Assembly: GCA_011523045.1 (NCBI GenBank)
Contig: WTHR01000130.1
Location: 1-43,119 of the forward strand
DNA length: 43,119 bases
Source: Gammaproteobacteria bacterium
GTDB taxonomy: Bacteria > Pseudomonadota > Gammaproteobacteria > Arenicellales > UBA868
Reading direction: 5' to 3'
Shown here: one piece after another, positions 8,763-35,274 of the stretch
How the letters are laid out: every line of letters starts with the position of its first letter
Numbering within the stretch: the stretch's first letter is position 1
Translations under genes and position numbers: made by a program
Notes under the pieces: model-generated
The model's input: only the letters and a program-made list of their open reading frames with translations
Databases searched by the model: none
What the model was told of the DNA's origin: nothing

Positions 8763-9257
8763 TCAGTCGACCTGAATGCTGACGCTGTCCGCGATGACCT
8801 GTCCGTTATGGGTCAGGTCGCGGTGATCGTTGCTGCTGAGAGAGACCATTACGGTATGGCTTCCGGCACTAAGCTTTCCGAGGTGGTACCAGTCACCATA
8901 AAGCCTGTTGATTTTTACGCCATCGACGTACAGATGCCCATGCCCCTCTCCTGCGACGTGATCCTGACTCGCGTTTTCGGGAGCAAAACGAAAATGCTCA
9001 ACAACCACTTTTGCATTCCAGCCTGACATTGGATCCTTTAGGACAGTCAGGGTAACTGTCGGGATCTGATCGCTCTTCGAAACTTCGAGGGGTTCATGAC
9101 TGTGTCCGCTGTGATCATGGCCTGAATGGTCTTTGGGACTGCCGGTGACCTCACCCATCGGCGATTCGGAAACCACTAATCCTCGACCGGGGAAACCGAG
9201 AAGAGTCCAGATCACGAAAGCCGCCATCGCGAGCATTAAGGCATGATCGCCTCTCAT
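8763..9257 (-). CDS. membrane-anchored or secreted protein with a His-rich linker; function unknown
   Basis: 164 aa. A hydrophobic N-terminal segment (about residues 7-23) suggests a membrane anchor or signal peptide. A His/Asp/Ser-rich linker DHSGHDHSGHSH (about 43-54) could bind transition metal. A beta-rich domain follows, with GEGHGHLYVDGVKINRLYGD and LSAGSHTVMVSLSSNDH. I have seen this domain type in uncharacterised exported proteins but do not recognise a function. It is the last gene of the ABC operon, 66 bases after the second permease. Its His tract closely resembles the loop in CbtA at 19148-19894, so a role in periplasmic metal handling for the pathway is possible. Confidence 0.7.
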   Translation of the reverse strand: MRGDHALMLAMAAFVIWTLLGFPGRGLVVSESPMGEVTGSPKDHSGHDHSGHSHEPLEVSKSDQIPTVTLTVLKDPMSGWNAKVVVEHFRFAPENASQDHVAGEGHGHLYVDGVKINRLYGDWYHLGKLSAGSHTVMVSLSSNDHRDLTHNGQVIADSVSIQVD

Positions 9258-9323: not shown

Positions 9324-10130
9324 TCATACATCTTTTTGCCAGCTGTACTTTTTAACCAGAACCCCAACGATCGTGTCTAAAGTGAACCCGATGATGCCGA
9401 TAACGACCACCATCGCGGTAAGGTGGTCATAGGCCAGTGTTTCGCGTGCGTCCTTGATCGCATATCCCAAGCCAGAGCTCACCCCAAGCAACTCTGCGGG
9501 CACAAGCACCACCCAGGCGATTCCCAACGCGAGACGAATGCCGGTGAAAATATCAAAAGCAATCGCTGGAAATATGACCTGCGCGAGCATTTTGTGAAAG
9601 TTGGCGCCGAGGTTTTTAGACACCTTGAACCAGGCAGGATCCACTTTTTTGAGTCCCGCTGCCGTCGCATAGATCACCGGCCATATGGCGGCTACAGCGA
9701 TGAGGAAGATGATCGCCTGATCCCATTTAGGAAATACGAACACGACGATGGGCATCCACGATAGAGGGCTCACCATCCGCAACAACTGGAACGGCTCGTT
9801 GGTCACCTGCTCGGTGATCTTGCTGAGACCAATTGCTATTCCGATTGGCACCCCAATGAGAATAGCAAGGAAAAGTCCGATCAGAAGCCGATAACCGCTC
9901 GCAATAACGTGCTCAGCTATGTAGCCAGTTTCTATCAAACCTGGCACCGCTTTGAGTGTCGGAACAAGTCCGAACTTCACAAAGCTGCTCGTGGCTGGAT
10001 TGGCTTCCAGGAACCAACCGCCTATTGCCCACAGGCCGATGAGAATCGCAAAACCCACCGCCGGATACGCAATACGATCGATCAGCCAGGTCTTAACGAA
10101 GCTTTGAGATTCTTGGGCGTTTTCGATCAT
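9324..10130 (-). CDS. ABC transporter permease, NrtB/SsuC/TauC type (second of two)
   Basis: 268 aa with about six membrane helices and the binding-protein-dependent permease fold. The EAA-loop region reads VDPAWFKVSKNLGANFHKML. The family imports anions such as nitrate, bicarbonate, cyanate and sulfonates. It is similar over its length to the permease encoded just upstream (18-base gap), so the membrane channel may be a heterodimer. The operon context (ATPase, two permeases, divergent CynR-like regulator, cyanase and thiocyanate hydrolase nearby) points to cyanate or thiocyanate as substrate; this is inferred. Confidence 0.9.
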   Translation of the reverse strand: MIENAQESQSFVKTWLIDRIAYPAVGFAILIGLWAIGGWFLEANPATSSFVKFGLVPTLKAVPGLIETGYIAEHVIASGYRLLIGLFLAILIGVPIGIAIGLSKITEQVTNEPFQLLRMVSPLSWMPIVVFVFPKWDQAIIFLIAVAAIWPVIYATAAGLKKVDPAWFKVSKNLGANFHKMLAQVIFPAIAFDIFTGIRLALGIAWVVLVPAELLGVSSGLGYAIKDARETLAYDHLTAMVVVIGIIGFTLDTIVGVLVKKYSWQKDV

Positions 10131-10148: not shown

Positions 10149-10967
10149 TCAGTTACGGTGCCAGCTGAAGCGTTTAATCAGGGCCTGGCAGATGCCGTCC
10201 ATCAAAAAGCCGATGATGCCGATAGCAAGAATCGTGACCGCAAGGTCGGCATACATCAAGTTCTCTCGTGAGTCTTGAATGGTGTAACCCAGACCTGATG
10301 TGATGCCGAGAAATTCTGCAGGGACGATAACAATCCACGCGACACCCAGCGCGAGACGGATACCCGTCATCACATCGAAGGCGATCGCCGGGAGGATAAT
10401 TTCCTTGAGGATATCCCACCAACTTGCCCCAAGGTTTCGAGCCACCTTAAACCAGGCCCGATCCAACTTGGCGAGGCCTGCTGCGGTAGCGAAGGCCACC
10501 GGCCAGACCGCAGCCATCGAGATCAGGAAGATAATTGCCTGATCCCAAGTTGGCATCGCAATCACCGCGATCGGCTCCCAAGACAACGGGCTCACCATGC
10601 GCAGGAACTGAAACGGGGTATTGCTGAGTTTGCGAAATACGTTGCTTCTCCCCATCAGAATACCCACGGGGATACCCGTAACGATCGCGAGCAGCAAACC
10701 TATGCCCAGGCGATACCCACTCGCCTGGCTGGCGTCGAGCAAGGTGCCTGACTGAACCATGTAAGGCACTGCATCAATGGTGGGGAACGGACCGAAATCC
10801 GCGAAGCTCATGGTGGCCGGGTTGCTCTCCAACAACCACCCGCCAAACCACCACAGGGCAAACAAGATTCCAAGACCGATCGCGCTGAAGAGCACTCGGC
10901 GCAGGACCATGACGATCAAATCGACCGCCACTGAGGATCTCTGAGGAGTACCGATTTCAGCAGCCAT
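10149..10967 (-). CDS. ABC transporter permease, NrtB/SsuC/TauC type (first of two)
   Basis: 272 aa with about six membrane helices. The EAA loop reads LDRAWFKVARNLGASWWDIL, and LGVAWIVIVPAEFLGITSGL is typical of NrtB/SsuC proteins. Many residues match the following permease (for example the shared segment RMVSPLSW and the ESNPAT/EANPAT pair), so the two arose by duplication. Most members of this transporter family have one permease gene and a homodimeric channel, so two adjacent, diverged permeases are notable. Confidence 0.9.
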   Translation of the reverse strand: MAAEIGTPQRSSVAVDLIVMVLRRVLFSAIGLGILFALWWFGGWLLESNPATMSFADFGPFPTIDAVPYMVQSGTLLDASQASGYRLGIGLLLAIVTGIPVGILMGRSNVFRKLSNTPFQFLRMVSPLSWEPIAVIAMPTWDQAIIFLISMAAVWPVAFATAAGLAKLDRAWFKVARNLGASWWDILKEIILPAIAFDVMTGIRLALGVAWIVIVPAEFLGITSGLGYTIQDSRENLMYADLAVTILAIGIIGFLMDGICQALIKRFSWHRN

Positions 10968-11005: not shown

Positions 11006-11773
11006 TTAGTGGGTCGCGGCGGAGGCCTGTCGGAAGGTCTCCATAAGATGTCCGCGAATCTTCTGAACCTCTGGATCCTGCGCAGTTCTTTCTTCCGGCA
11101 AATCGACCATGATCTCTTCTTTAATCTTGCCGGGAGATCCCGCCATAATTACCGCTCGATCGGCCATCAGTACCGCCTCGTCAATACTGTGAGTCACAAT
11201 CACAAGGTTGATACCCATGCTTTTGGCAATCGACCGCACGTCTTTTTGCAAAGAGGCCCGGGTAAATGCGTCAAGCGCGGAGAAGGGCTCGTCGAGAAGT
11301 AACATCTCGGGCTCCATAACGAGAGATCTCGCCAGCGCCACTCGCTGCTGCTGCCCGCCGGACAGATCCTGCACGTTGGACTCCGCATATTCTTCCAGAT
11401 CCACCAGCTTGATTGTCTTTTCGACACGTTCGCGGATCTTGTCTTCGGCAAAATTGGCAAACTTGAGTCCAATGCCCACGTTCTGACTGACCTGCATCCA
11501 CGGGAAAAGGTGGGGCGCCTGAAACATCATGACCCACTTGGGTGAAGGCTCTTTTACTTCAACGTTATTGAGTCGGATACTGCCGGCTGTGGGAGCGAGC
11601 AATCCGGCCATGATATGGAGCAGCGTAGACTTCCCGCAACCGGAACGGCCAATGATTGCCAACACTTCTCCCGGTTTGGACTCAAGATTGACCTTGTCAA
11701 AGGTCACCGGTCCTCGAGATGAATAGCTATGGGTTAGATCCTGTACGGAGATCTGCACACCGCTTCTGTCCAT
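11006..11773 (-). CDS. ABC transporter ATPase, NrtD/SsuB/TauB type
   Basis: 255 aa with all nucleotide-binding motifs: Walker A GRSGCGKST (42-50), Q-loop Q85, signature LSGGQ (137-141), Walker B LLLDEP (158-163) and switch H195. The length and the MFQAPHLFPWMQV segment fit the nitrate/cyanate/taurine importer subfamily. First gene of the import operon, divergent from the LysR regulator at 12172. No binding-protein gene is in this operon; the likely partner is the NrtA-like protein at 20208-21617. Confidence 0.93.
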   Translation of the reverse strand: MDRSGVQISVQDLTHSYSSRGPVTFDKVNLESKPGEVLAIIGRSGCGKSTLLHIMAGLLAPTAGSIRLNNVEVKEPSPKWVMMFQAPHLFPWMQVSQNVGIGLKFANFAEDKIRERVEKTIKLVDLEEYAESNVQDLSGGQQQRVALARSLVMEPEMLLLDEPFSALDAFTRASLQKDVRSIAKSMGINLVIVTHSIDEAVLMADRAVIMAGSPGKIKEEIMVDLPEERTAQDPEVQKIRGHLMETFRQASAATH

Positions 11774-12171: not shown

Positions 12172-13110
12172 ATGAACCGCAATACTATTTTTCCAAGGTC
12201 CCTTAAGTACCTCCTCGCGGTCGCAGAGTATTCGAGCTTTACCCGGGCCGCAGAGTCTCTGTTTGTCTCTCAGCCGGCTCTATCCCAACAGATTAAACAA
12301 CTGGAGGAGCAGGTCGGGGTACAACTGCTGGAGCGCTCCGGCCGTAACGTGCACCTCACTGATGCGGGTGATCTCTACGTCCGGCATGTCGAGCGGGCAC
12401 TTGCAGAGATCAATGCTGCCTCAGCCGCACTCGATGATCTCAGCGACCTTTCGCGAGGTCACGTGTCCCTTGCTATGACACCCATCACTGACTACCTCAC
12501 AGCGAGTCTGATCCAGGAGTTTGTCAGTCAACATCCGAATATCTCGATCGACATCAAAGAGATGACCCAACACGAGGTCGAGGAAGCTGTGCTTCAAGAT
12601 CAAGTTAGCGTGGGCGTCATGTTCAGTAACGAAACGTTGCTCACCACGGGGCGTGATGAGCTTGAGGCCATGACGCTGAATGCTGACGCGCTGGTCCTCG
12701 CGTCGAGCAAAAATGCCGCTCCAGAAAAAACTGATCTCGATCAGAACTCGTCGACGGAGTTGATGAAACAACCTCTGGCGCTGCTGAACAACCGCTTTGA
12801 GATGCGACGGCAGATCGACGCCTACTTCACCACTCACAATCTAGACCCGAGAGTCACTCTGGAAGCCAACTCCCTGGGATTCCTGATCGAGATGGTCAAG
12901 TACGGGGGGCTTCGCACCATACTCCCCGAATCCATCGTCGCATCAATGGAGGATCTGATTTCTATCCCCGTAGAACCTGCTCTACCCGCCCACACTGCTA
13001 CGATGATTATCCGCAAGGCAGCGTACCGCAGCCGAGCCACTGATGCGTTTTTGCGCCTCGCCCTGCTCTGGGATTTGCCGAGTGTATTGGGGCACCGGCG
13101 CGGATCCTAG
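12172..13110 (+). CDS. LysR-family transcriptional regulator, CynR-like
   Basis: 312 aa. The N-terminal winged helix-turn-helix (about residues 9-66) contains FTRAAESLFVSQPALSQQIK and LEEQVGVQLLERSGRNVHLT. An effector-binding periplasmic-protein-like domain (about 90-300) follows, as in CynR, CysB and Cbl. It is divergent from the ABC importer and close to cynS, the classic position for a CynR-type activator that senses cyanate. The effector here could be cyanate or thiocyanate. The 37-bp element shared with the scnB promoter suggests that it also controls thiocyanate hydrolase. Confidence 0.88.
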   Translation: MNRNTIFPRSLKYLLAVAEYSSFTRAAESLFVSQPALSQQIKQLEEQVGVQLLERSGRNVHLTDAGDLYVRHVERALAEINAASAALDDLSDLSRGHVSLAMTPITDYLTASLIQEFVSQHPNISIDIKEMTQHEVEEAVLQDQVSVGVMFSNETLLTTGRDELEAMTLNADALVLASSKNAAPEKTDLDQNSSTELMKQPLALLNNRFEMRRQIDAYFTTHNLDPRVTLEANSLGFLIEMVKYGGLRTILPESIVASMEDLISIPVEPALPAHTATMIIRKAAYRSRATDAFLRLALLWDLPSVLGHRRGS

Positions 13111-13143: not shown

Positions 13144-14391
13144 TTAGCCGGTATCTCTGTCGAAAAACGAAGGGGCGTAGAGCTGGTGGGAGATCAGCGT
13201 ACAAATGGTCACCGCAATAATTGAAACAAGCGCCGCTTCGTAAGAGCGCGTGAACTCAAAGATGATGAGCACCGTGGAGATCGGGGCTCCAAACACTGCA
13301 GCAGCTACAGCAGCCATGCCGGCAATACTGAGACCCGCACCACTCGCAATCCCCAAGGTCGTGGCCACTTTACCCAACAAGCACCCCACGCCTGCGCCCA
13401 CAAACAACGAGGGGAGATAGATACCGCCGTGCAGACCCGCACCCACACAAGCCACGGTCAGCACAAGTTTTGCGGCTATCAGGATCAGCACCGCCGCCGC
13501 CGGCAGGCTGTCGCTCAAAAAGTCCTGAACCACATCAATCCCCAGGCCAAGTGCGCCGGGGACCCAAAGCCCTACGCATGCGCATAAGAGAGCAGCAAGG
13601 ATTAACGGCCATGCAGGCAGGTTGGGCAACTGATCCACTTTATCTGTCAGTTTTCCGAGCAAGGCCATAAACAGCACCGCGGTTATCGCAAACACGGGCG
13701 CACTCACGATGAGCAATGGAATGAATTCCATCGTGAGGCTATGGACCAATCCATCGAAATAGGGTCTGCCGCCAACCTGAAATTGATCCGAGAGCATCGC
13801 GGCCGTAATGGCACAGATCGATATCGGTGCAATGGCTGGTACGGAAAAGCGGCGCAGAACCACTTCATGACTGAAGACGATGGCGGCGAGGGGAACTCCG
13901 AAACCCGCAGCGATGGCACCCGCCACGCCGCAACCAATCCACGTCTCTCCGGGGATTCGAGTTTTGATGGCTTTTGCAACGGCAGCCCCTACCGTTCCGC
14001 CGAAGTGCACCAGCGGACCGTACTGTCCAACGGAAGCCCCTCCACCGACTGCTATCAACGCGGCCAAGGTAGAACCGAGGCCGCCTTTGATATCTAACGG
14101 CTTTTCTGATTGCACAGCCGCGATGGTCTCGCGGGGTGAGTGAAAACGCTTGATCCCAAGCGCCCGCCTCAAGATCAGGATGAGTCCCGCGGATCCGAGC
14201 AGAAAAAATGCCGGCACCAGGCGCGGCAACTCCCCATCGATAAACGTCTCCGCAGTTTTGGAAAACGTATTGATGGAAGCGGCGGCCCAGAGAAACGAAC
14301 CCGCCGCAAAAGCCATCACCGAACCGATCGTTACACCGACGACCACGTAAAGGATCGAATCGACAAAGATGTTGCTCGGCTTTACCGCCAT
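13144..14391 (-). CDS. CLC-family anion channel/transporter with Tyr in place of the gating Glu
   Basis: 415 aa with about ten to twelve membrane segments. CLC landmarks are GGLHGG-like GAGLHGGIYLP and FGAPISTVLIIFEFT. The canonical GxxGREGP motif, which carries the external gating glutamate, here reads GASVGQYGP, putting Tyr at position 124. A glutamate in VFSHEVVLRRF may match the internal proton glutamate. CLC proteins pass Cl-, NO3- and SCN-. It lies 21 bases after cynS on the same strand, so a role in thiocyanate or cyanate movement, or in charge balance, is plausible. Classed as CLC with high confidence; its ion and mechanism are inferred. Confidence 0.88.
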   Translation of the reverse strand: MAVKPSNIFVDSILYVVVGVTIGSVMAFAAGSFLWAAASINTFSKTAETFIDGELPRLVPAFFLLGSAGLILILRRALGIKRFHSPRETIAAVQSEKPLDIKGGLGSTLAALIAVGGGASVGQYGPLVHFGGTVGAAVAKAIKTRIPGETWIGCGVAGAIAAGFGVPLAAIVFSHEVVLRRFSVPAIAPISICAITAAMLSDQFQVGGRPYFDGLVHSLTMEFIPLLIVSAPVFAITAVLFMALLGKLTDKVDQLPNLPAWPLILAALLCACVGLWVPGALGLGIDVVQDFLSDSLPAAAVLILIAAKLVLTVACVGAGLHGGIYLPSLFVGAGVGCLLGKVATTLGIASGAGLSIAGMAAVAAAVFGAPISTVLIIFEFTRSYEAALVSIIAVTICTLISHQLYAPSFFDRDTG

Positions 14392-14412
14392 AGTCCTCTA
14401 GCGTACCCTAAG

Positions 14413-14853
14413 TTACCAGGCGCTGTATTGCAGGTACTTGCCGCTCAAACTCAAGTGGACACGATCTCCTTTTTCGCTTTTCTCACGGGAAACGGTCATA
14501 TTGAAATCGACGGCTGACATGATCCCATCACCGAACTCCTCGTGGATAAGTTCCTTGATCGTTTCCCCATAGACTCCGACCATCTCGTATAGCCGGTAAA
14601 TTGCGGGGTCGGTCGGCACCGTTTGCTCCCACTGCTTATTGGGGTACTGCTGCAGTGCTGTTGATACAGTGCCCGGCAAACCCAGGCAGGAGGCAACCGC
14701 GTCCGCATCCGATTTTTCAAGATGGTTCATGCCAAGACAGGCTGACACCACGAACTCCGTCGACATCGATGTCGTTTCGGCAATTTCCCGCCAGGACAGA
14801 CCCTTCTCGAGTTTTGCCGTTCTAATGTGATCCTTCATCTCTTCTTTCTTCAT
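14413..14853 (-). CDS. cynS: cyanase (cyanate hydratase)
   Basis: 146 aa against 156 in E. coli CynS. The N-terminal helical domain (LSWREIAETTSMSTEFVVSA) and the C-terminal catalytic domain are both complete. The three catalytic residues align at R87, E90 and S113 (in YRLYEM and DGIMSAVDF), equal to R96, E99 and S122 in E. coli. The enzyme decamer converts cyanate plus bicarbonate to ammonia and CO2. An AGGAC ribosome binding site precedes the ATG. It is probably co-transcribed with the CLC gene. It detoxifies cyanate and supplies nitrogen. Confidence 0.97.
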   Translation of the reverse strand: MKKEEMKDHIRTAKLEKGLSWREIAETTSMSTEFVVSACLGMNHLEKSDADAVASCLGLPGTVSTALQQYPNKQWEQTVPTDPAIYRLYEMVGVYGETIKELIHEEFGDGIMSAVDFNMTVSREKSEKGDRVHLSLSGKYLQYSAW

Positions 14854-14961: not shown

Positions 14962-15870
14962 TCAGCGCAGATCGCCAACGATATTCAGGTTGCACTCCAG
15001 ATCTTCGGCAAATTCCTGTCGACATCGGTTCGCAATGAGTTGTGCGAACTCGGCGAGTCTTGACCCATCGGAAGACTCGTTCGAAAAAATGATGTTAGGA
15101 AAAGATCGGTCGAGACAAAGACCTGTCCCCGGCAAGCGGATCTCTCCCAAGCGGCTTAATATCTGCGCCGCTTGCTCCTTCGGGCTTTTTCGCCCTGCCT
15201 CATCAGCATTTTCGTTTTTTTGGGAAAAGACGTGGCCGGTGCAGAGCGGCGCCGCAGGAAACATTTCTTCATGCTGGTGCTTCACATCAGCCCATGCCGC
15301 GTTGAGTTTTTCGGGAACTTGCTGAGGCAGATCGAGCACAGCTTGAACGATTACCGCGTTTCTAAGCGCAGCGGCGCGTCGGTCGGGACGCTCAAAGACA
15401 TCTCGCTTGAGGGTCTGGATGCGTCCATCCCGCAACACGACTGTCGCGCGCAGAATTCGTTCACAAAGACGCCTCCCAGAAAAACTTGCATTGGATGCAA
15501 TCGCGCCGCCGATGGTTCCGGGGACTGCTCCCAGAAATGTAAGATCTAGGCCAAGCTTCATGGCTTTTCTTACCACATCGCCTGTCAAGGCGCCGGCGCC
15601 GACACGAACGGTGCGCTCCGACAGCGCCTCAAAGCCCCCAAACCGGGCCCCAAGATAAACCAGCACGCCATCGAAGCGATCGCGGCTGAAGCACGTATTT
15701 GATCCACTTCCAAGAACCTCGACCGGAGTCCTCTCAGGCAGGTCACGAAGATAATCCCCCAGGTCTGCCATATGTGCTGGCTGAAAGAATACCTTCGCTG
15801 ATCCGCCGGAATGAAACCAGGTCAGATCAGTGAGATTCTTGTTTTCAATGAGCGTGCGTTGCATAGACAT
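14962..15870 (-). CDS. MurB-like FAD-binding protein lacking the MurB catalytic residues
   Basis: 302 aa, alignable over its full length with UDP-N-acetylenolpyruvoylglucosamine reductase. The FAD-binding half is well kept: LGSGSNTCF (about 53-61) and [18 protein letters not shown] (about 112-129). The C-terminal part keeps [11 protein letters not shown]. The catalytic positions differ: the usual GS-x-F proton-donor serine is GHVF (212-215), the C-terminal LExE glutamate is LECN (N294), and the YRxSxF arginine motif is absent near 165-175. It may bind FAD and have a different job. Its place just upstream of cynS is unexplained; a true murB should exist elsewhere. Confidence 0.8.
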
Positions 15871-17001: not shown

Positions 17002-18135
17002 TCAGAGCAGGCCGCGCGCAGATGACCAATACCACTGGTTATAGGACATTTTCAGCATGTGCATGGACTTGGTCGGAGCCTTGATCTCTGGAGGATCAAT
17101 GTAATTGAAGCAGGCATTCGTTGCACGATCCTGATCCGCCTCAATAAAGCAATAAACCTTGCCATCATATTCGCGGGTTGCGGACCCTGTCCGAAAGATC
17201 GACGCGATATTCTCGCCGACCACTTCGCTCTGAAAGTGGGCCGTAGAACCCGTCTTGCTGATCGGCAAATTGCTGGTATCACCCACTACGTAGACGTTGT
17301 CGTGTCCTTCCATCTGCAACGAATAGCGGTCGGTCGGAATCCACCCGCCCTCTCCAAGATTGTTCTCCTCGATCACTTTCATGCCCCGATGCGGAGGAAC
17401 GGCAACGAGAAGATCAAACTCTTTTTCTGTGCCCTCTTCACTGTGCACAATTCGATTCTCAACGTCCACCTCCTTCATGTTAAAGAAGGTTTCATAGTCG
17501 ACTTCCATTCTTTCAAATTCGGGAACCGCCCAGGTGGCAATGTTCTCAATATTATGGATACGGGCGATCGGATAGGTGTATTTCAACTCCACCTTGTCTC
17601 TGATTCCTCGCTTTTCAAAAAATTCGTGCAGCATGAATGTGATCTCGATCGGGGCAATCGGACACTTATGCGGAACCCCCACCACAACCGCCACCTTACC
17701 GCCTTCAAAATCGCGCAGGCGTTTGAACATTCGGGTTGCGCCTTCGCGCGTATAAGGCGTTTCTGACGCCTCGGCAAGGCCCGGCACCTCATCGTAGACC
17801 GCCTCACACCCCGTGGCGATCACCAACATGTCGTAGTCATGGACCACGCCGCCTTTCGTCCTGACTTTATTCTGGGCCAGTTCAAATTCCTCAACCGGAT
17901 CTACAAAAAACCGGATGCCCGGTTCCAGCAAACTGGCCTGATCGCGAACGATGTCGTTCATTGCCATCTTGCCGAATGCGACATAAAGCAGCCCGGGTTG
18001 ATACCAGTGCTGATCGGTCGCCGAAAGCATGGTGATTTCGACCTTTCCGTCTCTTACCTCTCGAGCAAGCCGCCTCGCCACGTTATTGGCCACGATCGTG
18101 CCGCCCATGCCCCCACCAACAAATAAGATCTTCAT
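17002..18135 (-). CDS. sulfide:quinone oxidoreductase-type flavoprotein
   Basis: 377 aa. N-terminal FAD Rossmann motif LFVGGGMGGTIVANNVA (4-20), second motif LVIATGCEA with C110, PHKCPIAPIEITFMLHEFF with C158 at the position of a redox-active SQR cysteine, and C-terminal VGDTSNLPISKTGSTAHFQS (284-303). A further cysteine pair candidate is C329 or C342. SQR oxidises sulfide to polysulfur and reduces quinone at the membrane. The tusA and dsrE genes directly upstream fit a sulfur-handling role. The precise SQR type is not settled, and activity on another sulfur donor is possible. Confidence 0.88.
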   Translation of the reverse strand: MKILFVGGGMGGTIVANNVARRLAREVRDGKVEITMLSATDQHWYQPGLLYVAFGKMAMNDIVRDQASLLEPGIRFFVDPVEEFELAQNKVRTKGGVVHDYDMLVIATGCEAVYDEVPGLAEASETPYTREGATRMFKRLRDFEGGKVAVVVGVPHKCPIAPIEITFMLHEFFEKRGIRDKVELKYTYPIARIHNIENIATWAVPEFERMEVDYETFFNMKEVDVENRIVHSEEGTEKEFDLLVAVPPHRGMKVIEENNLGEGGWIPTDRYSLQMEGHDNVYVVGDTSNLPISKTGSTAHFQSEVVGENIASIFRTGSATREYDGKVYCFIEADQDRATNACFNYIDPPEIKAPTKSMHMLKMSYNQWYWSSARGLL

Positions 18136-19147: not shown

Positions 19148-19894
19148 CTAGGCGTCTTTCGGTAAAAACCGATGCAATCCTAAGCCAGTGCAGCCACCGA
19201 TGACCAGCCACATGATGAGCGAGCTGATCCCCGTAGCGACAAGAAACGCACCAGACAGCTCAGACAGCTGCGTCGCCACTTCAGCGGTATGGCCCGCATA
19301 CAGATCATCGGCTTGAGGCGCTCCGACAATATGCGGCACCACAAGTAACACAGCTGCGCCTACCCAGCGCCAGTTTGTCTTTAGTGTGTGAGCGAGGAAA
19401 AGCCCTATCCCCGTGCACAAGACTGTTGAGGTCCACCAAAACTGGCGAGATTCAAGCGCTGCCCCGGCGACTCCGGGCAACTGGGGAAGGATCCCGAGAG
19501 AGGGTGCTGCAAAAAACGCGATAAATCCGCCCAGCCCCCAAACAAGGCCTGAGGCGAAACTCATCCTGGCCTTGCCAAACTTTATTGAGGCCGCGGCCCC
19601 AAAAGCCACCAAAAGCAGAGCATAGCCTATTGCAGTGAGCACATTGGACAGCATCGTAAAGAGTATCCTCTCAAGTCCGTCCTCAGGACCCCACTCTTCA
19701 TGATCATGATCGTGATCGTGGCTGTGTCCCGAATGATCTGATTCCTCAGACCCTGCTACTTCGACTTTCTGGCTCTCAAGCTGCTCTGCTGCCGTGATGA
19801 TCGGTATGACCTGCCAGCGCTGAACCAGGCTGAGGGCAAGGCCCCCAGCCAGACCAGCGAGCAGCGCAATAACAACAATTCGGCGAAACAACAT
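19148..19894 (-). CDS. cbtA: CbtA, cobalt transporter subunit
   Basis: 248 aa with about five to six membrane helices. After the first helix comes a His/Asp-rich loop DHSGHSHDHDHDHEE (about residues 53-67), a likely metal-collecting site. LWGLGGFIAFFAAPSLGI-like and NWRWVGAAVLLVVPHIVGAP segments match CbtA proteins. CbtAB is usually predicted for cobalt uptake in B12 pathways; here the evident client is the cobalt enzyme thiocyanate hydrolase encoded upstream in the same direction. It follows cbtB closely (gap 47 bases). Confidence 0.93.
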   Translation of the reverse strand: MLFRRIVVIALLAGLAGGLALSLVQRWQVIPIITAAEQLESQKVEVAGSEESDHSGHSHDHDHDHEEWGPEDGLERILFTMLSNVLTAIGYALLLVAFGAAASIKFGKARMSFASGLVWGLGGFIAFFAAPSLGILPQLPGVAGAALESRQFWWTSTVLCTGIGLFLAHTLKTNWRWVGAAVLLVVPHIVGAPQADDLYAGHTAEVATQLSELSGAFLVATGISSLIMWLVIGGCTGLGLHRFLPKDA

Positions 19895-20207: not shown

Positions 20208-21617
20208 TTAGATCTCCAGAATCTCTTCGCGCTCGAAAGGATTGCCTCCCTGGGGCACGCTTGGATCATTTTTCCATGACGGATTGGCCATGAGTGCGTT
20301 CTTGACATACTCATACTGTACGAGATCATTGATCACGAACTCCGGATCCAGGGTATCCAGGAAGGTCCTGTCGCCGGTCACCAATGTCTCATTCTTCAGT
20401 TCATTGACCACCAGTCGGGTGGCCGACGGATAAGGCCATGCTTGGAAGTCGATGCGATTCTGACCCCACTCGGTATGACGGATCGCAGCAGGATTGTTGT
20501 AATACGCCGGATCGTAGAACATCATGGCACGCTCAACCACTTTGCTCGGGAAGGGGTAGTACTTCTTACCTTCACGCGACAGCAGCTGGGCAACCTCTTT
20601 TCGGTTGGATCCGGTGTAAAGCTGTGCCTTGACTACGGCATTGTGTACACCCTGTGCCCACGCGGCCCGTTCCGGATCCATTGCGTCGTCTTCATGCATC
20701 ACCACAACACAGCAGGGATGCCCCTTCCACACGTCACCGGTAAATCGGAGCACTTTGCCGCCGGCTTTGATCTCACCGAGCGCATTGAAAGGCTCAGCAA
20801 CACAGTAGCCATCGATCTTCTTAGCGGCCAGTGCAGGCGGCATATCAGGCGGCGCGAGCACTTGGAAGTTACATTCATTAGGCGCCAGAGCCGCGTCCTG
20901 CGCTCGGATCACCGGGGTGATTCCTGCCTCCTTCATGATCTTCTGGGAGACAATGTTATGGATTGAATACCAATACGGAACCGCAAACTGCTTTCCGCCG
21001 AAGTCTGCGGGCGTTTTGATCTCCGGGTTCACCACGATTGCCGAACCATTGCTGTGGTCCCAGGCCGTGATCTTCACGGGGAATTTATTGTTGTACCGCA
21101 TCCAGACTGGAATCGGGATGAGCATGTGCGTCAGATTGAACTTGTGGGCGGCGAATGCCTCCACCAGTGGTGACCAACCCCGAATCAGTGTCGGGCGTTT
21201 GGATTCAATTCCCTCTTCCTTGAAGAAGCCAAGCTCATGCGCGACCAACAGGGCTGCCGCATCAGTAATTGGGATGTAGCAGATGTTGACAACGGGATCG
21301 AATGCTTTTTTACCGAAAGCCGGCATGCTGCCCAGCCCAAGGCCGGCACCGGCCAGGGCTGCGCCCGTCTGCAGCACCGACCGTCGGCTTATCCCTGTCC
21401 CGAGAAACCCACCAAACAGAGGGTCCGAATTAATCTTGAGAAACGGATCGTCAATCTGATCTCCGAAACTTTTGGCGTTCAGCGGCAGGCCGTTCTCATC
21501 GACTGGGCCCCCGTCTATGAACTGAGCTTCTTCCTCATCGAGAATATCATCTGCGATTGCCTGCGACTTTGTTTTCGCGGCCAGCAGTTTTTCTTCCTGC
21601 GTTAACTGTTTTTTCAT
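20208..21617 (-). CDS. NrtA/CmpA-type ABC solute-binding protein with Tat signal
   Basis: 469 aa from ATG 21617, chosen because GGAGGAGG is just upstream (the frame is open to 21638). The Tat motif SRRSVLQTGAALAGAGLGLG begins at residue 77, after an unusually long polar N-terminal stretch. The mature part starts with the NrtA-like region VNICYIPITDAAALLVAHEL and has the two-lobe binding fold. Related proteins capture nitrate, bicarbonate or cyanate in the periplasm. It lies between thiocyanate hydrolase and cobalt-transport genes, so thiocyanate or cyanate is the likely ligand. It probably feeds the permeases at 9324-10967. Confidence 0.9.
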   Translation of the reverse strand: MKKQLTQEEKLLAAKTKSQAIADDILDEEEAQFIDGGPVDENGLPLNAKSFGDQIDDPFLKINSDPLFGGFLGTGISRRSVLQTGAALAGAGLGLGSMPAFGKKAFDPVVNICYIPITDAAALLVAHELGFFKEEGIESKRPTLIRGWSPLVEAFAAHKFNLTHMLIPIPVWMRYNNKFPVKITAWDHSNGSAIVVNPEIKTPADFGGKQFAVPYWYSIHNIVSQKIMKEAGITPVIRAQDAALAPNECNFQVLAPPDMPPALAAKKIDGYCVAEPFNALGEIKAGGKVLRFTGDVWKGHPCCVVVMHEDDAMDPERAAWAQGVHNAVVKAQLYTGSNRKEVAQLLSREGKKYYPFPSKVVERAMMFYDPAYYNNPAAIRHTEWGQNRIDFQAWPYPSATRLVVNELKNETLVTGDRTFLDTLDPEFVINDLVQYEYVKNALMANPSWKNDPSVPQGGNPFEREEILEI

Positions 21618-21766
21618 GTCTTCGCTTTCCTCCTCCATTTTGTCTGCAGAGCTTTAACCCTTTAAATGTCTGTACAAATCTCCTTAACTCCTTACAAATG
21701 TTTACTGATACTTGTTGCTGGCAATCTTGCCTGCTGGCCCCCAGGGCTCAAAGAACTGTGCTCTCA

Positions 21767-22111: not shown

Positions 22112-22819
22112 CTAATGGCCGTAAGGATGGATTGCGGGGATCACCGGTCTCTTGTCATCCGCCTTACGATCCGCGCGGGGCATCGCCACGCCAATCAGAC
22201 AGTCGCGGGTAACAATTTCGGCAAGCTGATCCTCGGTCCAGCCGTCGGTGCCTTCTGGCCGCACCGGCATAACCACGTAACGGGTCTTCTGATTCGAATC
22301 AGCCACGCGAATCTCAACGTCTTCAGGCAACTGCAGGCCGAATTCAGACAACACCTGCCGCGGCCAGCGCACCATCCGGCGTCGATAGTTGGGCGTACGG
22401 TACCACTCGGGAGATTGACCCAGAATCGGCCTCGGATAGCAGGAACACAGCGTGCAGACCACGACATGCTTCAACTTGGGCGTATCAACCAAAATCCGTG
22501 GGTTGCAGTAGTCACTGGGGGTGCCAAAGTTCGAGGGCATGCTGGTAATCCAGTTGATACCTACCTCCAAACTCGCTTTGACGGGGTCATCAATACACAA
22601 CTGCTTGTAATCTTCATCTAGCCAGGCTTTGGCGACGAGTCTTGCAGCAGGGGTAGGACCCAATGTGTGCATATATTCCGTCCACTCGTTGTGATCGGCT
22701 TGTGTAAACAGTCCTTTCTCAATGCATAACTCGCGGACTGCGACTTCCAGCGCCTCAAAGTCGCTGACCTCATCCACCATGGGCGCGGCTTTGTGATCAT
22801 GATCATGTGAATTTGACAT
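22112..22819 (-). CDS. scnC: thiocyanate hydrolase gamma subunit (cobalt-binding)
   Basis: 235 aa, matching the known gamma subunit (243 aa). The cobalt claw motif is C122-T-L-C125-S-C127 followed by YPR. In this motif class the second and third cysteines are oxidised to sulfinate and sulfenate, and the CTLC form indicates cobalt rather than iron. The rest aligns with nitrile hydratase alpha subunits. The enzyme hydrolyses SCN- to carbonyl sulfide and ammonia. The N-terminal HDHDH tract may bind metal. It follows scnA by 49 bases. Confidence 0.96.
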   Translation of the reverse strand: MSNSHDHDHKAAPMVDEVSDFEALEVAVRELCIEKGLFTQADHNEWTEYMHTLGPTPAARLVAKAWLDEDYKQLCIDDPVKASLEVGINWITSMPSNFGTPSDYCNPRILVDTPKLKHVVVCTLCSCYPRPILGQSPEWYRTPNYRRRMVRWPRQVLSEFGLQLPEDVEIRVADSNQKTRYVVMPVRPEGTDGWTEDQLAEIVTRDCLIGVAMPRADRKADDKRPVIPAIHPYGH

Positions 22820-22868: not shown

Positions 22869-23222
22869 TCAGAGCGCCTCGAGCCAACGCTCGGAGAGTT
22901 CTGTTTCAAGCGTATCGGCCTCGAACTTCTTGGGATAATCTGGCCACAGGTCAGTCTGCTTGAAGAGCAGGCTGTAGAACCATTCTGGGCTGTCGGTGTT
23001 ATCCCACGCTTCGTCTTCTGCCGGCGGGCTTTCGTATACGAGTTTTACAACTGTCGCTTCCGCCTCACGAAGATACATCTGCGAGCGGGTATAGAAGATA
23101 TCGGGCAGATTGCGGATCCGAACCCGGTCCCCCACCTTAAATTTCGCGGGAGGTGCCTCACCTTTGAAGCACTGCGGATCCCCAACGTTCGTTGCTTTTT
23201 CTACATGGTGGCTGCTGCTCAT
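22869..23222 (-). CDS. scnA: thiocyanate hydrolase alpha subunit
   Basis: 117 aa. The SH3-like barrel starts with KFKVGDRVRIRNLPD, as in the C-terminal half of nitrile hydratase beta subunits. In thiocyanate hydrolase the nitrile-hydratase beta chain is split into two proteins, ScnB (N-terminal half) and ScnA (C-terminal half). That split is exactly what is seen here and distinguishes the enzyme from nitrile hydratase. The start overlaps the scnB stop by four bases (23219-23222). Confidence 0.94.
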   Translation of the reverse strand: MSSSHHVEKATNVGDPQCFKGEAPPAKFKVGDRVRIRNLPDIFYTRSQMYLREAEATVVKLVYESPPAEDEAWDNTDSPEWFYSLLFKQTDLWPDYPKKFEADTLETELSERWLEAL

Positions 23223-23686
23223 AAGTCATGACCCTTTGCATCGTAAAGAAGACCGTCCTGTTTGTGGGCGCGCTGTTTGACCTCTTCGATCTTGTCGATC
23301 AGTTCGGTCAGTTTGACGTGCTGCTTATCCACGAGGATCAGCGCGATCGTCATCAACCAGCGGCCGTAGTAAGGCAAGCCAAGATAGATTGTCTGTCCGA
23401 CGTCGACATTCTGGCGGCGGCGGCGCTCCTCAGCATTCCAAACCCCTCGCCAGGCAAGCACCTCGCAAGTCACAAAGGTGTTGTGTTCCCAGATCTCTTC
23501 CTCTTTCTCTTCCCAGGTAATCGGAACGTCTGCCTCACCTCCGACATCGTGGGACGCGCGGGTGTAAGCGCGGAAATGGGCGTTATCGATCAAATCGCCG
23601 GTGGGGGCGTGCTGCGGCTGATGTAGCGCCGGCTGCAACTGGCCGACGATATTGAGGTGCCGCATGATTTTTTCGCGGTTAGACAT
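23219..23686 (-). CDS. scnB: thiocyanate hydrolase beta subunit
   Basis: 155 aa (about 157 in Thiobacillus). It matches the N-terminal half of nitrile hydratase beta, with WEEKEEEIWEHNTFVTCEVL and LPYYGRWLMTIALILVDKQ. It forms part of the active-site wall around the cobalt site of ScnC. It is the first gene of the scnB-scnA-scnC-activator operon, the gene order known for this enzyme. A 235-base regulatory region precedes it. Confidence 0.93.
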   Translation of the reverse strand: MSNREKIMRHLNIVGQLQPALHQPQHAPTGDLIDNAHFRAYTRASHDVGGEADVPITWEEKEEEIWEHNTFVTCEVLAWRGVWNAEERRRRQNVDVGQTIYLGLPYYGRWLMTIALILVDKQHVKLTELIDKIEEVKQRAHKQDGLLYDAKGHDL

Positions 23687-31005: not shown

Positions 31006-31509
31006 TCAGTCGTCGGCAGACTTCTTGGCAGGTTTGTCAGTGCGGCGCTTGGAGTCGCCCGCCTCTTCCTTGACGAGACCGGCCGACCGCAGGAAGTTCT
31101 GCTGGACATCCTGCCACGCTTCAAGATTGCGTTTGGCCATCTCGGACATCATGCCTACCGAGGTCTGGCCGAGAAATTCAGTCAGCCGATCCTGGTATAC
31201 CTGCTGCTGATCAACGAAGAGCTCCAGACTGCGGTTTAAGTAATCGGTGAACATCTTCTGCGTACTGCCGCCGTAAAAACGGATCAGGTGCGTCAGGATT
31301 TCTGTCGTGAAAAGCGGCTGGCCGCCGCTCTCCTGTTCGTTGATGATCTGCAGTAGCACCGTGCGAGTCAGGTCATCGCCGCTGGCGACGTCAACGACCT
31401 CGAACTCTTCGCCCTCTATGATGAGCTGGCGAAGATCCGAAATCGTGATGTAGCGGCTGACTTCGGTATCGTAAAGCCGCCGGTTGGGGTACTTCTTGAT
31501 GGTACGCAT
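31006..31509 (-). CDS. phaR: PhaR, polyhydroxyalkanoate synthesis repressor
   Basis: 167 aa. The N-terminal DNA-binding domain IKKYPNRRLYDTEVSRYITI (4-23) is diagnostic. The accumulation-associated domain follows, with FYGGSTQKMFTDYLNRSLEL. The C-terminus is basic. PhaR represses phasin genes and itself, and is released when it binds PHA granules. An operator-like TTGTGCGGTGCAATAA lies directly upstream (31529-31548), matching two sites before the phasin gene. Confidence 0.95.
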   Translation of the reverse strand: MRTIKKYPNRRLYDTEVSRYITISDLRQLIIEGEEFEVVDVASGDDLTRTVLLQIINEQESGGQPLFTTEILTHLIRFYGGSTQKMFTDYLNRSLELFVDQQQVYQDRLTEFLGQTSVGMMSEMAKRNLEAWQDVQQNFLRSAGLVKEEAGDSKRRTDKPAKKSADD

Positions 31510-31528
31510 GGTGACGTCCGGCCCCTGC

Positions 31529-31548
31529 TATTGTGCGGTGCAATAATA
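31529..31548 (-). promoter_or_regulatory. candidate PhaR operator at the phaR promoter
   Basis: The sequence TATTGTGCGGTGCAATAATA has inverted ATTG/CAAT ends around TGCGGTG. It shares the TGCRGTGCA core with the two sites upstream of the phasin gene. It is 20 bases before the phaR ATG, a position suited to autorepression. Confidence 0.55.
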
Positions 31549-31588
31549 CCACCCCCGGACAGAAAGCCGCGCGCGACAGCCATCCGGA

Positions 31589-32311
31589 TCAGTACATATG
31601 CTGGCCGCCGTTGATCGACAGCGTGGACCCCGTAATAAAGGTCGCGTCGTCCGCTACCAGGAACTGCACCGCCCGGGCGATATCGCTTGCGTAACCCAGC
31701 CTGCCGACCGGGATGGTGGCGATGATCTTTTCAAGCACCTTTTCTGGCACCGCGCGCACCATATCCGTATCCACATAACCCGGCGCAATGGCGTTGACCG
31801 TAACCCCTTTGGCCGCGCCTTCCAGAGCCAGTGCCTTGGTAAAGCCATGGATGCCGGACTTGGCAGCCGCATAGTTCACCTGACCGTACTGGCCTGCCTG
31901 GCCGTTGACGGACCCGATATTGACGATGCGGCCGAAACCCCGCTCGCGCATGCCGTCTATGACGTTACGGCACATGTTGTAGCAGGAAGAAAGGTTGGTC
32001 TGCAAAACCGCGTTCCACTGCTCAAAGTCCATCCGGTGCAAAGTGCCGTCTCGGGTGATGCCCGCGTTGTTGACCAGGATGCCGACCGGACCGAGATCGG
32101 TCTCGATTCGGGAGACACTGTCGGCGCACTGATCGAAATCGGCCACATCAAAACGGTACACGCTGATTCCGGTCTGTGTCTTGAAGGCTTCGGCGGCTTC
32201 ATCATTGCCGGCGTAGGTCGCCGCGACCTTGTGGCCATCTTCACTCAGGGCCACAGATATGGCGGCACCGATGCCGCGGGTTCCACCGGTCACGATTGCT
32301 GTGTGTGACAT
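31589..32311 (-). CDS. phaB: acetoacetyl-CoA reductase
   Basis: 240 aa SDR. The cofactor motif is TGGTRGIG (8-15). The NNAG motif is at 81-84. The catalytic residues are N106, S134, Y147 and K151 (NIGSVNGQAGQYGQVNYAAAK). The sequence is typical of PhaB, which reduces acetoacetyl-CoA to (R)-3-hydroxybutyryl-CoA with NADPH. Its place between phaA and phaR settles the assignment over FabG. A 112-base gap separates it from phaA, so it may have its own promoter. Confidence 0.95.
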   Translation of the reverse strand: MSHTAIVTGGTRGIGAAISVALSEDGHKVAATYAGNDEAAEAFKTQTGISVYRFDVADFDQCADSVSRIETDLGPVGILVNNAGITRDGTLHRMDFEQWNAVLQTNLSSCYNMCRNVIDGMRERGFGRIVNIGSVNGQAGQYGQVNYAAAKSGIHGFTKALALEGAAKGVTVNAIAPGYVDTDMVRAVPEKVLEKIIATIPVGRLGYASDIARAVQFLVADDATFITGSTLSINGGQHMY

Positions 32312-32423
32312 CTTTTGAGTCCTCGTTCTTTAAACTTGAAACTTTAAATTGCTTGAGTTTCGTCAAAAATGGTTAACGGATTGCTGGAGTCGCGCTCTGC
32401 CCCTATCTGAATGCCAAGCGGCG

Positions 32424-33608
32424 TCAGTTTCGCTCGACACACATTGCGATACCCATGCCGCCGCCGATACACAGGGTGGCAAGACCCCGATGCACCTCAC
32501 GACGCTGCATCTCATAAAGGAGTGTTGTCAGCACCCGAGCGCCTGACGCACCAATGGGATGGCCGAGCGCAATCGCGCCGCCGTTCACATTGACCAAGTC
32601 AGGGTTCCACGCCATCTCCTGGTTGACCGCACAGGCTTGCGCGGCAAAGGCTTCGTTGGCTTCCACAAGTTCAAGGTCGTCTATCGTCCAGCCCGCTTTT
32701 CTGAGCGCGGCAGTGCTGGCCGGGATCGGGCCCGTTCCCATGATGCTGGGGTCAACCCCGGCTGTGGCCCAGGAAACGATTCGGGCAAGCGGCGTGATCC
32801 CGCGCTCGGCGGCTGCAGCCGCGCTCATCAAAACGGTCGCTGCCGCCCCGTCATTGAGCCCCGACGCATTGCCGGCGGTCACACTGCCTTCTTTATCAAA
32901 GGCGGGTCGCAAACCAGAGAGGCTCTCCACCGTGGTGCCGTGACGCGGATGCTCATCGGTATCTACGATCGTATCGCCCTTGCGGCCCTTGATCGTGACC
33001 GGAACAATCTCATCACTAAAACGGCTGGCCTGTTGAGCCGCCTCGGCTTTTTGCTGAGACGAGGCCGCAAAGGCATCCTGCATCTCGCGGGAAATGCCAA
33101 ATTGAGAGGCAACGTTCTCGGCAGTATTGCCCATGTGGTATCCGTTAAATACATCCAGCAGGCCGTCAACCAGCATGGTGTCGATCATCTCCAGTCCACC
33201 GAGCTTCTGGCCGTCGCGAAGATGGGCGCAGTGCGGTGCCTGACTCATGCTCTCCTGCCCGCCGGCCACCACGATGTCGGCGTCTTCGTTGCGGATAGAC
33301 TGATAGCCTGCCGCTACGGCGCGAAGGCCTGAACCGCACAACTGGTTCAGCACGAGCGCCGTACTTTCCACAGGCACCCCGGCCCCGATCGCTGCCTGGC
33401 GCGCCGGGTTTTGCCCCGTGCCTGCAGTCAGGATCTGACCCATAACGACTTCATTAACTTCGTTGGCCGAAACGCCGGCACGCTCGAGTGCGGCGACGAT
33501 CGCCGCCTTGCCAAGTTCACTCGCTGGCAATGTGGAGAGTCCACCGTTGAAGGCGCCGACGGGAGTTCTGGCGGCACTTGCAATCACTACATCCTTTTCA
33601 GATGTCAT
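32424..33608 (-). CDS. phaA: acetyl-CoA C-acetyltransferase (beta-ketothiolase)
   Basis: 394 aa, full length. The acylated nucleophile is C91 in [12 protein letters not shown]. The C-terminal catalytic segments are [19 protein letters not shown] and [12 protein letters not shown]. It condenses two acetyl-CoA to acetoacetyl-CoA, the first step of PHB synthesis. The gene is followed by phaB on the same strand. Confidence 0.96.
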
Positions 33609-33789
33609 GGGAGGTCTACCTCGTCTTGTCGATTTCTAAAGGCCGGGCGCGAAGACCCGGAAAAGGCACTCGGATCGCGTTGGAGAATACCGGCTTGATC
33701 ATTGTGTCACAGCGGCGGGTCTTGGCGATCCTGTTGGCTTGCCTTTATCTCTTCTATCTCTTCTCGCTCTTCTTGCGATTCAATCAAAA

Positions 33790-33821
33790 CAGGGAAGACC
33801 CGCGGTGGCCGGTCTTCCCTG
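33790..33821 (-). terminator. intrinsic terminator of the phasin gene
   Basis: An 11-bp perfect stem pairs CAGGGAAGACC (33790-33800) with GGTCTTCCCTG (33811-33821) around a ten-base loop. On the minus strand it is followed by TTTTGATTG. It lies about 50 bases beyond the phasin stop codon. Confidence 0.9.
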
Positions 33822-33868
33822 TCCAGAACGTCATCTTAATGTGACAGCGCCTGAAGACGCGTCATTCA

Positions 33869-34252
33869 CTAAGCGGCTTTGCCGCGCGTCTTGGTGTCTT
33901 TTTCCATCACCGTGCCGAGATCGGCAGCTGACTGGGTGAAAAGCGCCTGCGCCTCGTCAACGTAAGCCCGGCTGAGCTCCATGATCTCACCGGAGTCTTT
34001 GGCCATCTTCTGCACCAGGCCCCGAACCACTTCGGGCTGCTTTTCAAAGTAGGACCGGGCGGACTGCGCGTCTTTGACTTCGAGCGCTTCGCGCGCGTTG
34101 TTCAAAAGGGCATCGGCGTAAACCTTGGCAGAACCCATCTGCAGTTCAATCATCTTCTCGATATTCTTGACCATCAGTTGGCCGGCGCTGTTGGCCGCGT
34201 TGACAGCGGTTTTTGCGGCAGTCTCATAGGTTTCGGTCATGTTGGCATTCAT
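33869..34252 (-). CDS. phasin family protein (PHA granule-associated)
   Basis: 127 aa, all helical and amphipathic, with SAGQLMVKNIEKMIELQMGS and SYFEKQPEVVRGLVQKMAKD typical of phasin_2-type proteins. Phasins coat PHA granules and control their size. It is transcribed away from phaE-phaC with a shared 260-base promoter region that holds two candidate PhaR sites. Confidence 0.92.
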   Translation of the reverse strand: MNANMTETYETAAKTAVNAANSAGQLMVKNIEKMIELQMGSAKVYADALLNNAREALEVKDAQSARSYFEKQPEVVRGLVQKMAKDSGEIMELSRAYVDEAQALFTQSAADLGTVMEKDTKTRGKAA

Positions 34253-34288
34253 GGTTTTGTCCTCGTTTGAAACAGGGCTGTAATAATT

Positions 34289-34332
34289 TTGTTGCAGTGC
34301 ACAATAACAGAACTATTGATGCAGTGCAACAA
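34289..34332 (-). promoter_or_regulatory. two candidate PhaR operators in the phasin/phaE divergent promoter
   Basis: TTGTTGCAGTGCACAA (34289-34304) and TTGATGCAGTGCAACAA (34316-34332) share the core TGCAGTGCA. Centres are about 27 bases apart, roughly two and a half to three helical turns. The site at the phaR promoter has the same core. They lie 37-80 bases before the phasin ATG. The rest of the 34253-34512 interval is AT-rich and holds no gene. Confidence 0.6.
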
Positions 34333-34512
34333 TTTTTGGGAAAAGTGATTTTTATCAGATAAAACAGTAGTTTAAATATCTCCTAATTTCCTTTTTGTGA
34401 GATTTCTATTCTTTATAGAGGCCAGTATTTGGCGATTGCAAAGCAGCAATGGTTATTGATCTTGGGAGTGGAGCAACCGGGATATTGGGGTCTTCTGAAC
34501 TAGAATCAGGCA

Positions 34513-35274
34513 ATGAATAAAGAGGTTTCTGCCGACTGGGCCAGCGCCCTCCTCGGACTGCACCAGCTGTTAAGGGAGCAGCTCGATAAGGCCAGCCCCG
34601 GCGTGGCTCCCATGAACATGCCCCATGCCACCGACTGGCTGCAGAGCCTGGCCGGGATGAACCCAGCCAACAGTCTTGCGGGTTCGCCAGGATTTCACCT
34701 GCCGCCCGCCCCTTCTGACGAGGGTGCGACATGGGAATCGGCGGCAAGGCGCTATCGCGAGGCGGCGTTGGCCCTGCAGGGCGCATGGCTACAGATCAGT
34801 TCCGATGCCCTGGCTGATCTGCGTGAAGCGCTCGATGAAGATCACGCACCGCAGGACCTGCGGGGCATCTATGATCTTTGGGTCAATTGCGCAGAAGCAG
34901 TCTTTGCCCGACAAAGCCTCACCGAGGACTACGCAAATCTCGTGAGCGAACTCATTAATTCGCAGGTAGCGCTTCAGCTCACCGCGGGTATCGGCTCGGC
35001 CCCTGCGCCCGATGACCCGGCCCAACTCAAAGAAGCCCTCGCTGCCGCGGCTGCCAGGGAGGCAAGGCTGAGAGCGGATCTTGAGGCGCTCCGTCAGGCC
35101 GACAGCACTGCACCCTCCCCGGCAAAAAAACGGGCCAGTAAAAAACCCGGGGCCAGCGCCAACGCGAAAGCCGTAAAGAAAAAAGCAGGGTCGACCGGAC
35201 CTTCCCAGAAAACCAAAAAAACGCAGCGGAAAAAACCAAGACAAAAGAAAGGTCCGACAAGTGAAAGCGCCTGA
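34513..35274 (+). CDS. phaE: PhaE, class III PHA synthase subunit, with a basic C-terminal tail
   Basis: 253 aa, shorter than the 350-aa PhaE of Allochromatium. The N-terminal and central parts match PhaE (ESAARRYREAALALQGAW, RGIYDLWVNCAEAVFARQ). The last about 52 residues (202-253) form a Lys/Ala/Ser-rich tail with 15 Lys and 3 Arg, resembling the KKPA-type tails of histone-H1-like proteins and PhaM/PhaF. PhaE activates PhaC. The stop overlaps the phaC GTG start. Confidence 0.88.
   Translation: MNKEVSADWASALLGLHQLLREQLDKASPGVAPMNMPHATDWLQSLAGMNPANSLAGSPGFHLPPAPSDEGATWESAARRYREAALALQGAWLQISSDALADLREALDEDHAPQDLRGIYDLWVNCAEAVFARQSLTEDYANLVSELINSQVALQLTAGIGSAPAPDDPAQLKEALAAAAAREARLRADLEALRQADSTAPSPAKKRASKKPGASANAKAVKKKAGSTGPSQKTKKTQRKKPRQKKGPTSESA

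Follow-up and report, generated by a model that had tools for sequence, protein, structure and literature searches.

Published gene clusters for thiocyanate breakdown (scn) include, in the available part of their description, a NitT/TauT ABC importer, a DsrE-like protein, a sulfide:quinone reductase (SQR) and cobalt uptake, and one of them also a cyanase (PMC5328954). The products of thiocyanate hydrolase are given in the accessible passages as carbonyl sulfide (COS) and ammonia and not cyanate (PMC6504805, PMC5328954); cyanate is therefore no intermediate of this route. As for the CLC family, excerpts of one study report that H+ transport is lost but Cl- still flows once the gate can no longer be protonated, that all CLC channels carry Val at the position of E203 of E. 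coli ClcA (ClC-ec1), and that coupled CLCs without a dissociable residue at this position also exist (PMC3519907). The E148A mutant is described as a strictly passive Cl- transporter in the portion of the text at hand (PMC12873427). Likewise from partial texts, CLC selectivity follows the order Cl>Br>NO3>I and is contrasted with that of SCN-preferring channels (PMC9726985), and there is a precedent for CLCs serving as electrical shunts which balance charge for amino-acid decarboxylases (PMC6909576).

We analysed a 43,119-nucleotide stretch of gammaproteobacterial DNA (contig WTHR01000130.1; hereafter the window) in which a CLC gene lies in an scn island (Table 1). Apart from the genes listed in the table, the island encodes DsrE and DUF1641 proteins. 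ABC importer genes were present in every scn island piece that we fetched, with the exception of a 5-kb fragment (L119). A promoter/terminator scan gave nothing usable, with five promoter-like sites as against 3.6 on average in shuffled sequence. A polyhydroxyalkanoate-like ORF set, read from translations only, lies upstream of the scn genes (31006-36313).

Table 1. Features of the scn island and of its CLC gene (positions within the window)
Feature	Position	Strand	Basis or remark
CLC protein, 415 aa, CBS-less, Tyr at gating-glutamate position	13144..14391	minus	ORF (ATG start at 14391), Pfam, alignments
GQYGP motif codons, residues 122-126 including Tyr124	14014..14028	minus	
His175-Glu176-Val177 codons (= EcClcA I201, E202, E203)	13861..13869	minus	
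cynS-CLC gap, 21 bp	14392..14412	minus	promoter-like sites: none reported inside
cynS, cyanase	14413..14853	minus	TIGR00673 138.7 bits, cut-off 113.3
MurB-like FAD protein, fast evolving	14962..15870	minus	PF01565; below every MurB cut-off; dN/dS 0.26
LysR-type regulator, convergent with CLC	12172..13110	plus	
ABC importer permease 1	9324..10130	minus	ORF; homologues in other scn islands; named from translation
ABC importer permease 2	10149..10967	minus	ORF; homologues in other scn islands; named from translation
ABC importer ATPase	11006..11773	minus	PF00005
ABC substrate-binding protein, NMT1/SsuA type	20208..21638	minus	PF13379; TIGR01728 below cut-off
Thiocyanate hydrolase gamma subunit	22112..22819	minus	TIGR03887 365 bits, cut-off 291, E 7.3e-110
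Thiocyanate hydrolase small subunit	22869..23222	minus	TIGR03888 below cut-off; adjoins gamma
Thiocyanate hydrolase small subunit	23219..23686	minus	TIGR03888 below cut-off; position by gamma
Sulfide:quinone reductase-like protein	17002..18135	minus	PF07992; NF049943 below cut-off
CbtA, probable cobalt transporter	19148..19894	minus	PF09490

The product of the CLC gene is a member of the CLC superfamily, its match to Voltage_CLC (PF00654; E 1.6e-60, 205.6 bits) exceeding the curated cut-off of 24.8, and no CBS domain was found in its 415 residues by a Pfam scan. The genome it comes from, an assembly of 250 contigs (2.72 Mb; 90.5% complete), yielded no other CLC. Scores for the NCBIfam equivalogs were all below the cut-offs, namely 98 bits against 350 for ClcA and, as the best ones, 122 against 425 and 120 against 482 for ClcB and ClcB-like proteins. 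Close kinship to CLC-F was not indicated, the phmmer match to the solved structures 6d0j/6d0k (~1e-8) being weaker than that to ClcA structures (~1e-17).

Tyr124 (in the context ASVGQYGP) falls on the gate glutamate E148 of ClcA, as shown by phmmer alignments with solved structures and independently by a MAFFT alignment of 105 rows. GQYGP was also present in all four other intact island copies (89, 78, 60 and 41-42% identical) and at 15 of 16 loci of an independent scan, where the exception (L003) was a broken gene; the motif can therefore not be attributed to chance or sequencing error. A plasmid search returned distant CLCs only, in seven records. The internal proton glutamate E203 of ClcA is replaced as well, by Val177, so that both protonatable glutamates that mark a coupled H+/anion exchanger are absent. 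The equivalents of F190 (Phe164) and E202 (Glu176) are kept, the latter being Glu in all alignment rows, while F357 and A358 are changed to Tyr325 and Leu326. Since both side-chain ligands of the central Cl- site are also altered (S107 to His84, Y445 to Phe410), a preference for Cl- cannot be assumed. Valine at the E203 position says little by itself, because 40 of the 42 Glu-gate alignment rows carry it too. An AlphaFold2 model, built from 11 rows, had a mean pLDDT of 56, a quality too low for conclusions about the structure. The original prediction, which had seen a tyrosine in place of the gating glutamate, a distance of 21 bases to cynS and a thiocyanate island around them, was thus confirmed in these points; the orientation of the gene on the minus strand had not been stated there. 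Its expectation that loss of the gate glutamate indicates uncoupled anion flow gained support from the loss of the internal glutamate: together, Tyr124 and Val177 point to an uncoupled pathway, as judged from the available parts of the literature (PMC3519907, PMC12873427). The bulky Tyr could alternatively block the pore.

Among 102 aligned CLCs, chosen for their similarity to the window protein, a choice that biases residue frequencies, the gate residue was Tyr in 59, Glu in 42 and His in one. To define a clade, we left the gate columns out of the tree building. In the resulting tree all Tyr rows, including the island CLC, and the His row formed a single clade (60 rows, SH-aLRT 98), which was recovered in a careful tree of 55 rows, with 47 of the 102 excluded (35 rows in the clade; bootstrap 100/SH-aLRT 98). 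After addition of 19 members of the order and exclusion of EcClcA and EcClcB, the clade (SH-aLRT 98) contained 77 of 119 rows, of which 74 had Tyr, two Phe, one His and none Glu, and all 42 rows outside it had Glu at the gate. A cut ORF (L040), the second CLC ORFs of L019 and L020, duplicates (L001, L002 and L077) and broken genes (L003/L081/L109 and L165) were dropped before counting.

In this sample the aromatic-gate clade was met only in Gammaproteobacteria, mostly as long proteins encoded away from scn and cynS. When the flanks of L004-L017 (up to 10 kb per side, less at contig ends) were tested for other proteins of the window island, no match was obtained. The island CLCs constitute one branch of the clade (support 91; 90/80 in the careful tree; 95 in the 119-row tree), with CLCs of Halieaceae as the sister branch. 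The Tyr clade is far wider than the scn branch, and from this it follows that the change from Glu to Tyr came first and recruitment to scn later; GQYGP as an adaptation to scn is ruled out, as the change sits at the base of the clade. Recruitment of the CBS-less branch to scn apparently took place a single time, in one family. Nor is CBS loss exclusive to scn, since L162 (GHYGP, 447 aa) ends before any CBS domain and its genome (G437) had no TIGR03887 match over the cut-off. Phe-gate CLCs are likewise short (475-477 aa); they represent a second CLC type in the genus of the window, with the motif GRFGP (L163:968-2392, L164:246-1676), of which another copy (L165) is split into two ORFs. The clade member with a His gate reads GQHGP (L030:1360-3087). 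Besides the gate, the clade is marked by His175, Arg180 and Asp411 (81, 95 and 93% of the 59 Tyr rows), which few or none of the 42 Glu rows have and which possibly form a linked network. Although the fold is known, we found no description of an aromatic-gate CLC clade in the open-licence literature searched, which is not proof of none; the clade, with one branch tied to scn in one family, is apparently undescribed there.

Within the order (109 genomes), TIGR03887 was over the cut-off in nine genomes, seven of them from the family of the window. An intact short CLC occupied the same place in five of these seven (the window, UBA2996 (G457), G454, G469 and G442). As for the other two, the CLC of SAT1475 (G460) is broken, and the contig of G459 ends before the CLC place. 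No CLC was detected on the island pieces fetched from the remaining scn-positive members of the order (G414 and G431). In a sample of the class, the gamma subunit was over the cut-off in 10 of 369 genomes, the window's own included, and no CLC was seen in seven islands from this sample (L113-L119, the last being only 5 kb); in G110 and G326 the best CLC match was located on a contig other than that of scn. Altogether, none of the nine islands fetched outside the family (L111-L119, some ended by contig edges) showed a CLC, and the CLC is not a core component of scn islands generally. Among the 20 genomes of the genus, the short CLC, with the broken copy counted, was present in five of six scn-positive and in none of 14 scn-negative ones (Fisher p 0.0004), a value which overstates the link because the block is passed on as a unit and because a good many of the genomes are not complete.

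The gene cynS was found in 12 of the 109 genomes of the order. Seven genomes (G371, G374, G381, G382, G383, G414 and G431) had cynS with distant CLCs only and no short CLC, whereas G442 (92% complete) had scn and the short CLC without a cynS match. The latter rules out cynS as the partner of the CLC, which follows scn instead. In G442, a methyltransferase-like ORF (L108:10014-10781, named from translation only) replaces cynS and the MurB-like gene directly before the CLC. Of the link to thiocyanate and cyanate genes that had originally been predicted, the syntenic tie to scn thus stands, while the part concerning cynS does not. Similarly, the proposed phylogeny against gene context did resolve an scn-linked, CBS-less branch in one family, but within a Tyr clade extending far beyond scn. 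The Tyr gate itself is no mark of pseudohalide use, and what the original prediction had named as its refutation was largely observed: GQYGP CLCs are common in Gammaproteobacteria with no scn or cynS genes nearby.

Comparison with UBA2996 gave a dN/dS of 0.105 for the island CLC, indicating purifying selection. Only the MurB-like gene (0.262) evolved faster among the 15 other island genes, and the hydrolase subunits had values of 0.006-0.011. Across four species, 82 of 95 columns were invariant in the pore motifs of the CLC, compared with 135 of 311 elsewhere. In SAT1475, the CLC gene (L109:13300-14231, identical with L003) contains an in-frame stop and a 273-bp deletion that removes the gate region and, relative to the window, two 1-bp insertions and a 16-bp gap. 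A single assembly slip is unlikely to lie behind several distinct lesions. The remaining piece had a dN/dS of 0.46. Thirteen other island genes of SAT1475 were 94-100% identical to those of the window, the exceptions being the MurB-like gene (76%, split) and an outlying hypothetical gene (8763-9257; 80%); CbtA was not found in this island. A CLC pseudogene beside 13 near-identical genes indicates that the CLC is dispensable. The MurB-like gene itself, the fastest of the island and far below the MurB cut-offs, had a partial match in G454 and was not found in the G442 island by BLAST.

To accommodate these observations, we tentatively favour a model, somewhat short of probable in our judgement, in which the CBS-less Tyr-gate CLC recruited to the scn island would act as an uncoupled charge shunt, mainly for Cl-, beside the ABC importer. 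The proton-carrying gate glutamate would have been replaced by Tyr, rarely by Phe or His, in the ancestral clade, and a CBS-less branch would have joined the scn island of one family, probably once. ATP-driven import of SCN- through the ABC importer would make the cell interior more negative, and thiocyanate hydrolysis would make the cytoplasm more alkaline. The island CLC would conduct anions, mainly Cl-, without proton coupling, and the exit of Cl- through it would restore the balance. By analogy with ClC-ec1 mutants in the literature, the absence of coupling is most likely; we infer the rest of the scheme, i.e. that Cl- is the main ion, that the ABC importer takes up SCN- and that the CLC acts as a shunt. 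The SAT1475 pseudogene, along with the lack of a CLC in the other islands fetched, means that such a shunt would not be generally needed.

These two facts are also what would be expected of a dispensable passenger, i.e. a CLC whose arrival in the island was accidental and whose retention or loss would matter little to the use of thiocyanate. Its rank as second fastest among the island genes tested agrees with this, and one recruitment could explain the whole linkage. We nevertheless consider a passenger rather unlikely, given that the gene has stayed intact in five genomes of two genera, with GQYGP unchanged at identities down to 41-42%, that its pore motifs are more conserved than the rest, and that its dN/dS is far from neutral. 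The dedicated pseudohalide channel of the original prediction, taken as an uptake route, is highly improbable in spite of its position just behind cynS within the scn island. At bacterial membrane potentials of -120 to -180 mV, inside negative, a passive pore would hold a monovalent anion at about 1/100-1/1000 of its outside concentration and therefore could not support concentrative uptake. The island already encodes an ABC importer, which would be the natural candidate for uptake of SCN-, rather than the CLC; furthermore, the Tyr gate is older than the link to the island, G442 has the CLC without cynS, and in SAT1475 the CLC is broken in an otherwise largely intact island.

The same potential would drive anions out, so that the pore might serve as a relief valve, letting SCN- (or OCN-) leave when ABC import or cyanate formation overloads the cell. 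Apart from its site in the scn island, this would be compatible with the altered central-site ligands, through which selectivity may have shifted, and Nguitragool and Miller reportedly observed in 2006 that polyatomic anions, SCN- among them, uncouple ClC-ec1. Such a function is quite unlikely in our opinion, as a substrate imported at the cost of ATP would be wasted and as SAT1475 has lost the gene and the other fetched islands showed none. Moreover, the CLC family prefers Cl- according to the accessible text of PMC9726985; the original statement that CLC pores pass SCN- well was overstated in this respect, and a preference for SCN- would require the changed central site to matter. There is a slim chance that this is so, namely that the clade consists of natural uncoupled Tyr-gate channels and that the central site of the scn branch (His84, Phe410, Tyr325-Leu326) has been re-tuned to prefer SCN-/OCN-. 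Alternatively, the protein might still exchange anions for protons, Tyr124 and/or His175 standing in for the two glutamates as proton carriers. This is very doubtful, and the high pKa of a Tyr side chain speaks against it. His occupies the position of EcClcA I201 in 48 of 59 Tyr rows and in 3 of 42 Glu rows, and E202 is kept throughout; on the other hand, His also occurs together with GREGP (L135, L142 and L144) and 10 Halieaceae rows have Ser, which breaks a strict Tyr124-His175 pair and leaves the pairing loose and mostly inherited. The coupled CLCs without a dissociable E203 (PMC3519907, in the part available) would be in line with retained coupling.

Whether there are true CLC channels in bacteria, and what follows when the gate glutamate is removed by evolution, has mostly been approached through engineered mutants. 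A Tyr-gate clade that is natural and widespread and has Glu-gate sisters provides pairs at hand for tests of uncoupling, gating and selectivity, and the scn branch supplies a testable physiological setting, the charge balance of anion import. If the scn branch did prefer SCN-/OCN-, it would be the first pathway-dedicated pseudohalide CLC.

Compared with known systems, the island CLC resembles the H+/Cl- exchanger ClcA in family membership and in the residues kept, and departs from it at the gate, the internal glutamate and the central site, as detailed above. With E. coli ClcB it has in common His at the S107 position and Val at E203, whereas ClcB retains a gate glutamate in the motif GREGA. 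Vertebrate CLC-K channels have also lost the gate glutamate naturally (bCLC-k has Val there; PMC9726985, partial text) and share Val at E203 (PMC3519907, partial text), but the protein described here is bacterial and has Tyr in place of the gate Val. As for the island, the scn clusters of Thiobacillus thioparus and Thioalkalivibrio thiocyanodenitrificans likewise contain scnABC, the NitT/TauT ABC importer, the DsrE-like protein, SQR and cobalt uptake, and that of T. thioparus also has the cyanase; a CLC, present in the window island, is unnamed in the available part of their published description (PMC5328954). The closest relatives of the protein, the Halieaceae CLCs (L004-L013), share GQYGP with it and are longer (564-589 aa); the only one of them to be scanned, L010, matched CBS, and they have LVSEA where the CBS-less island CLCs have F(S/A)HEV.
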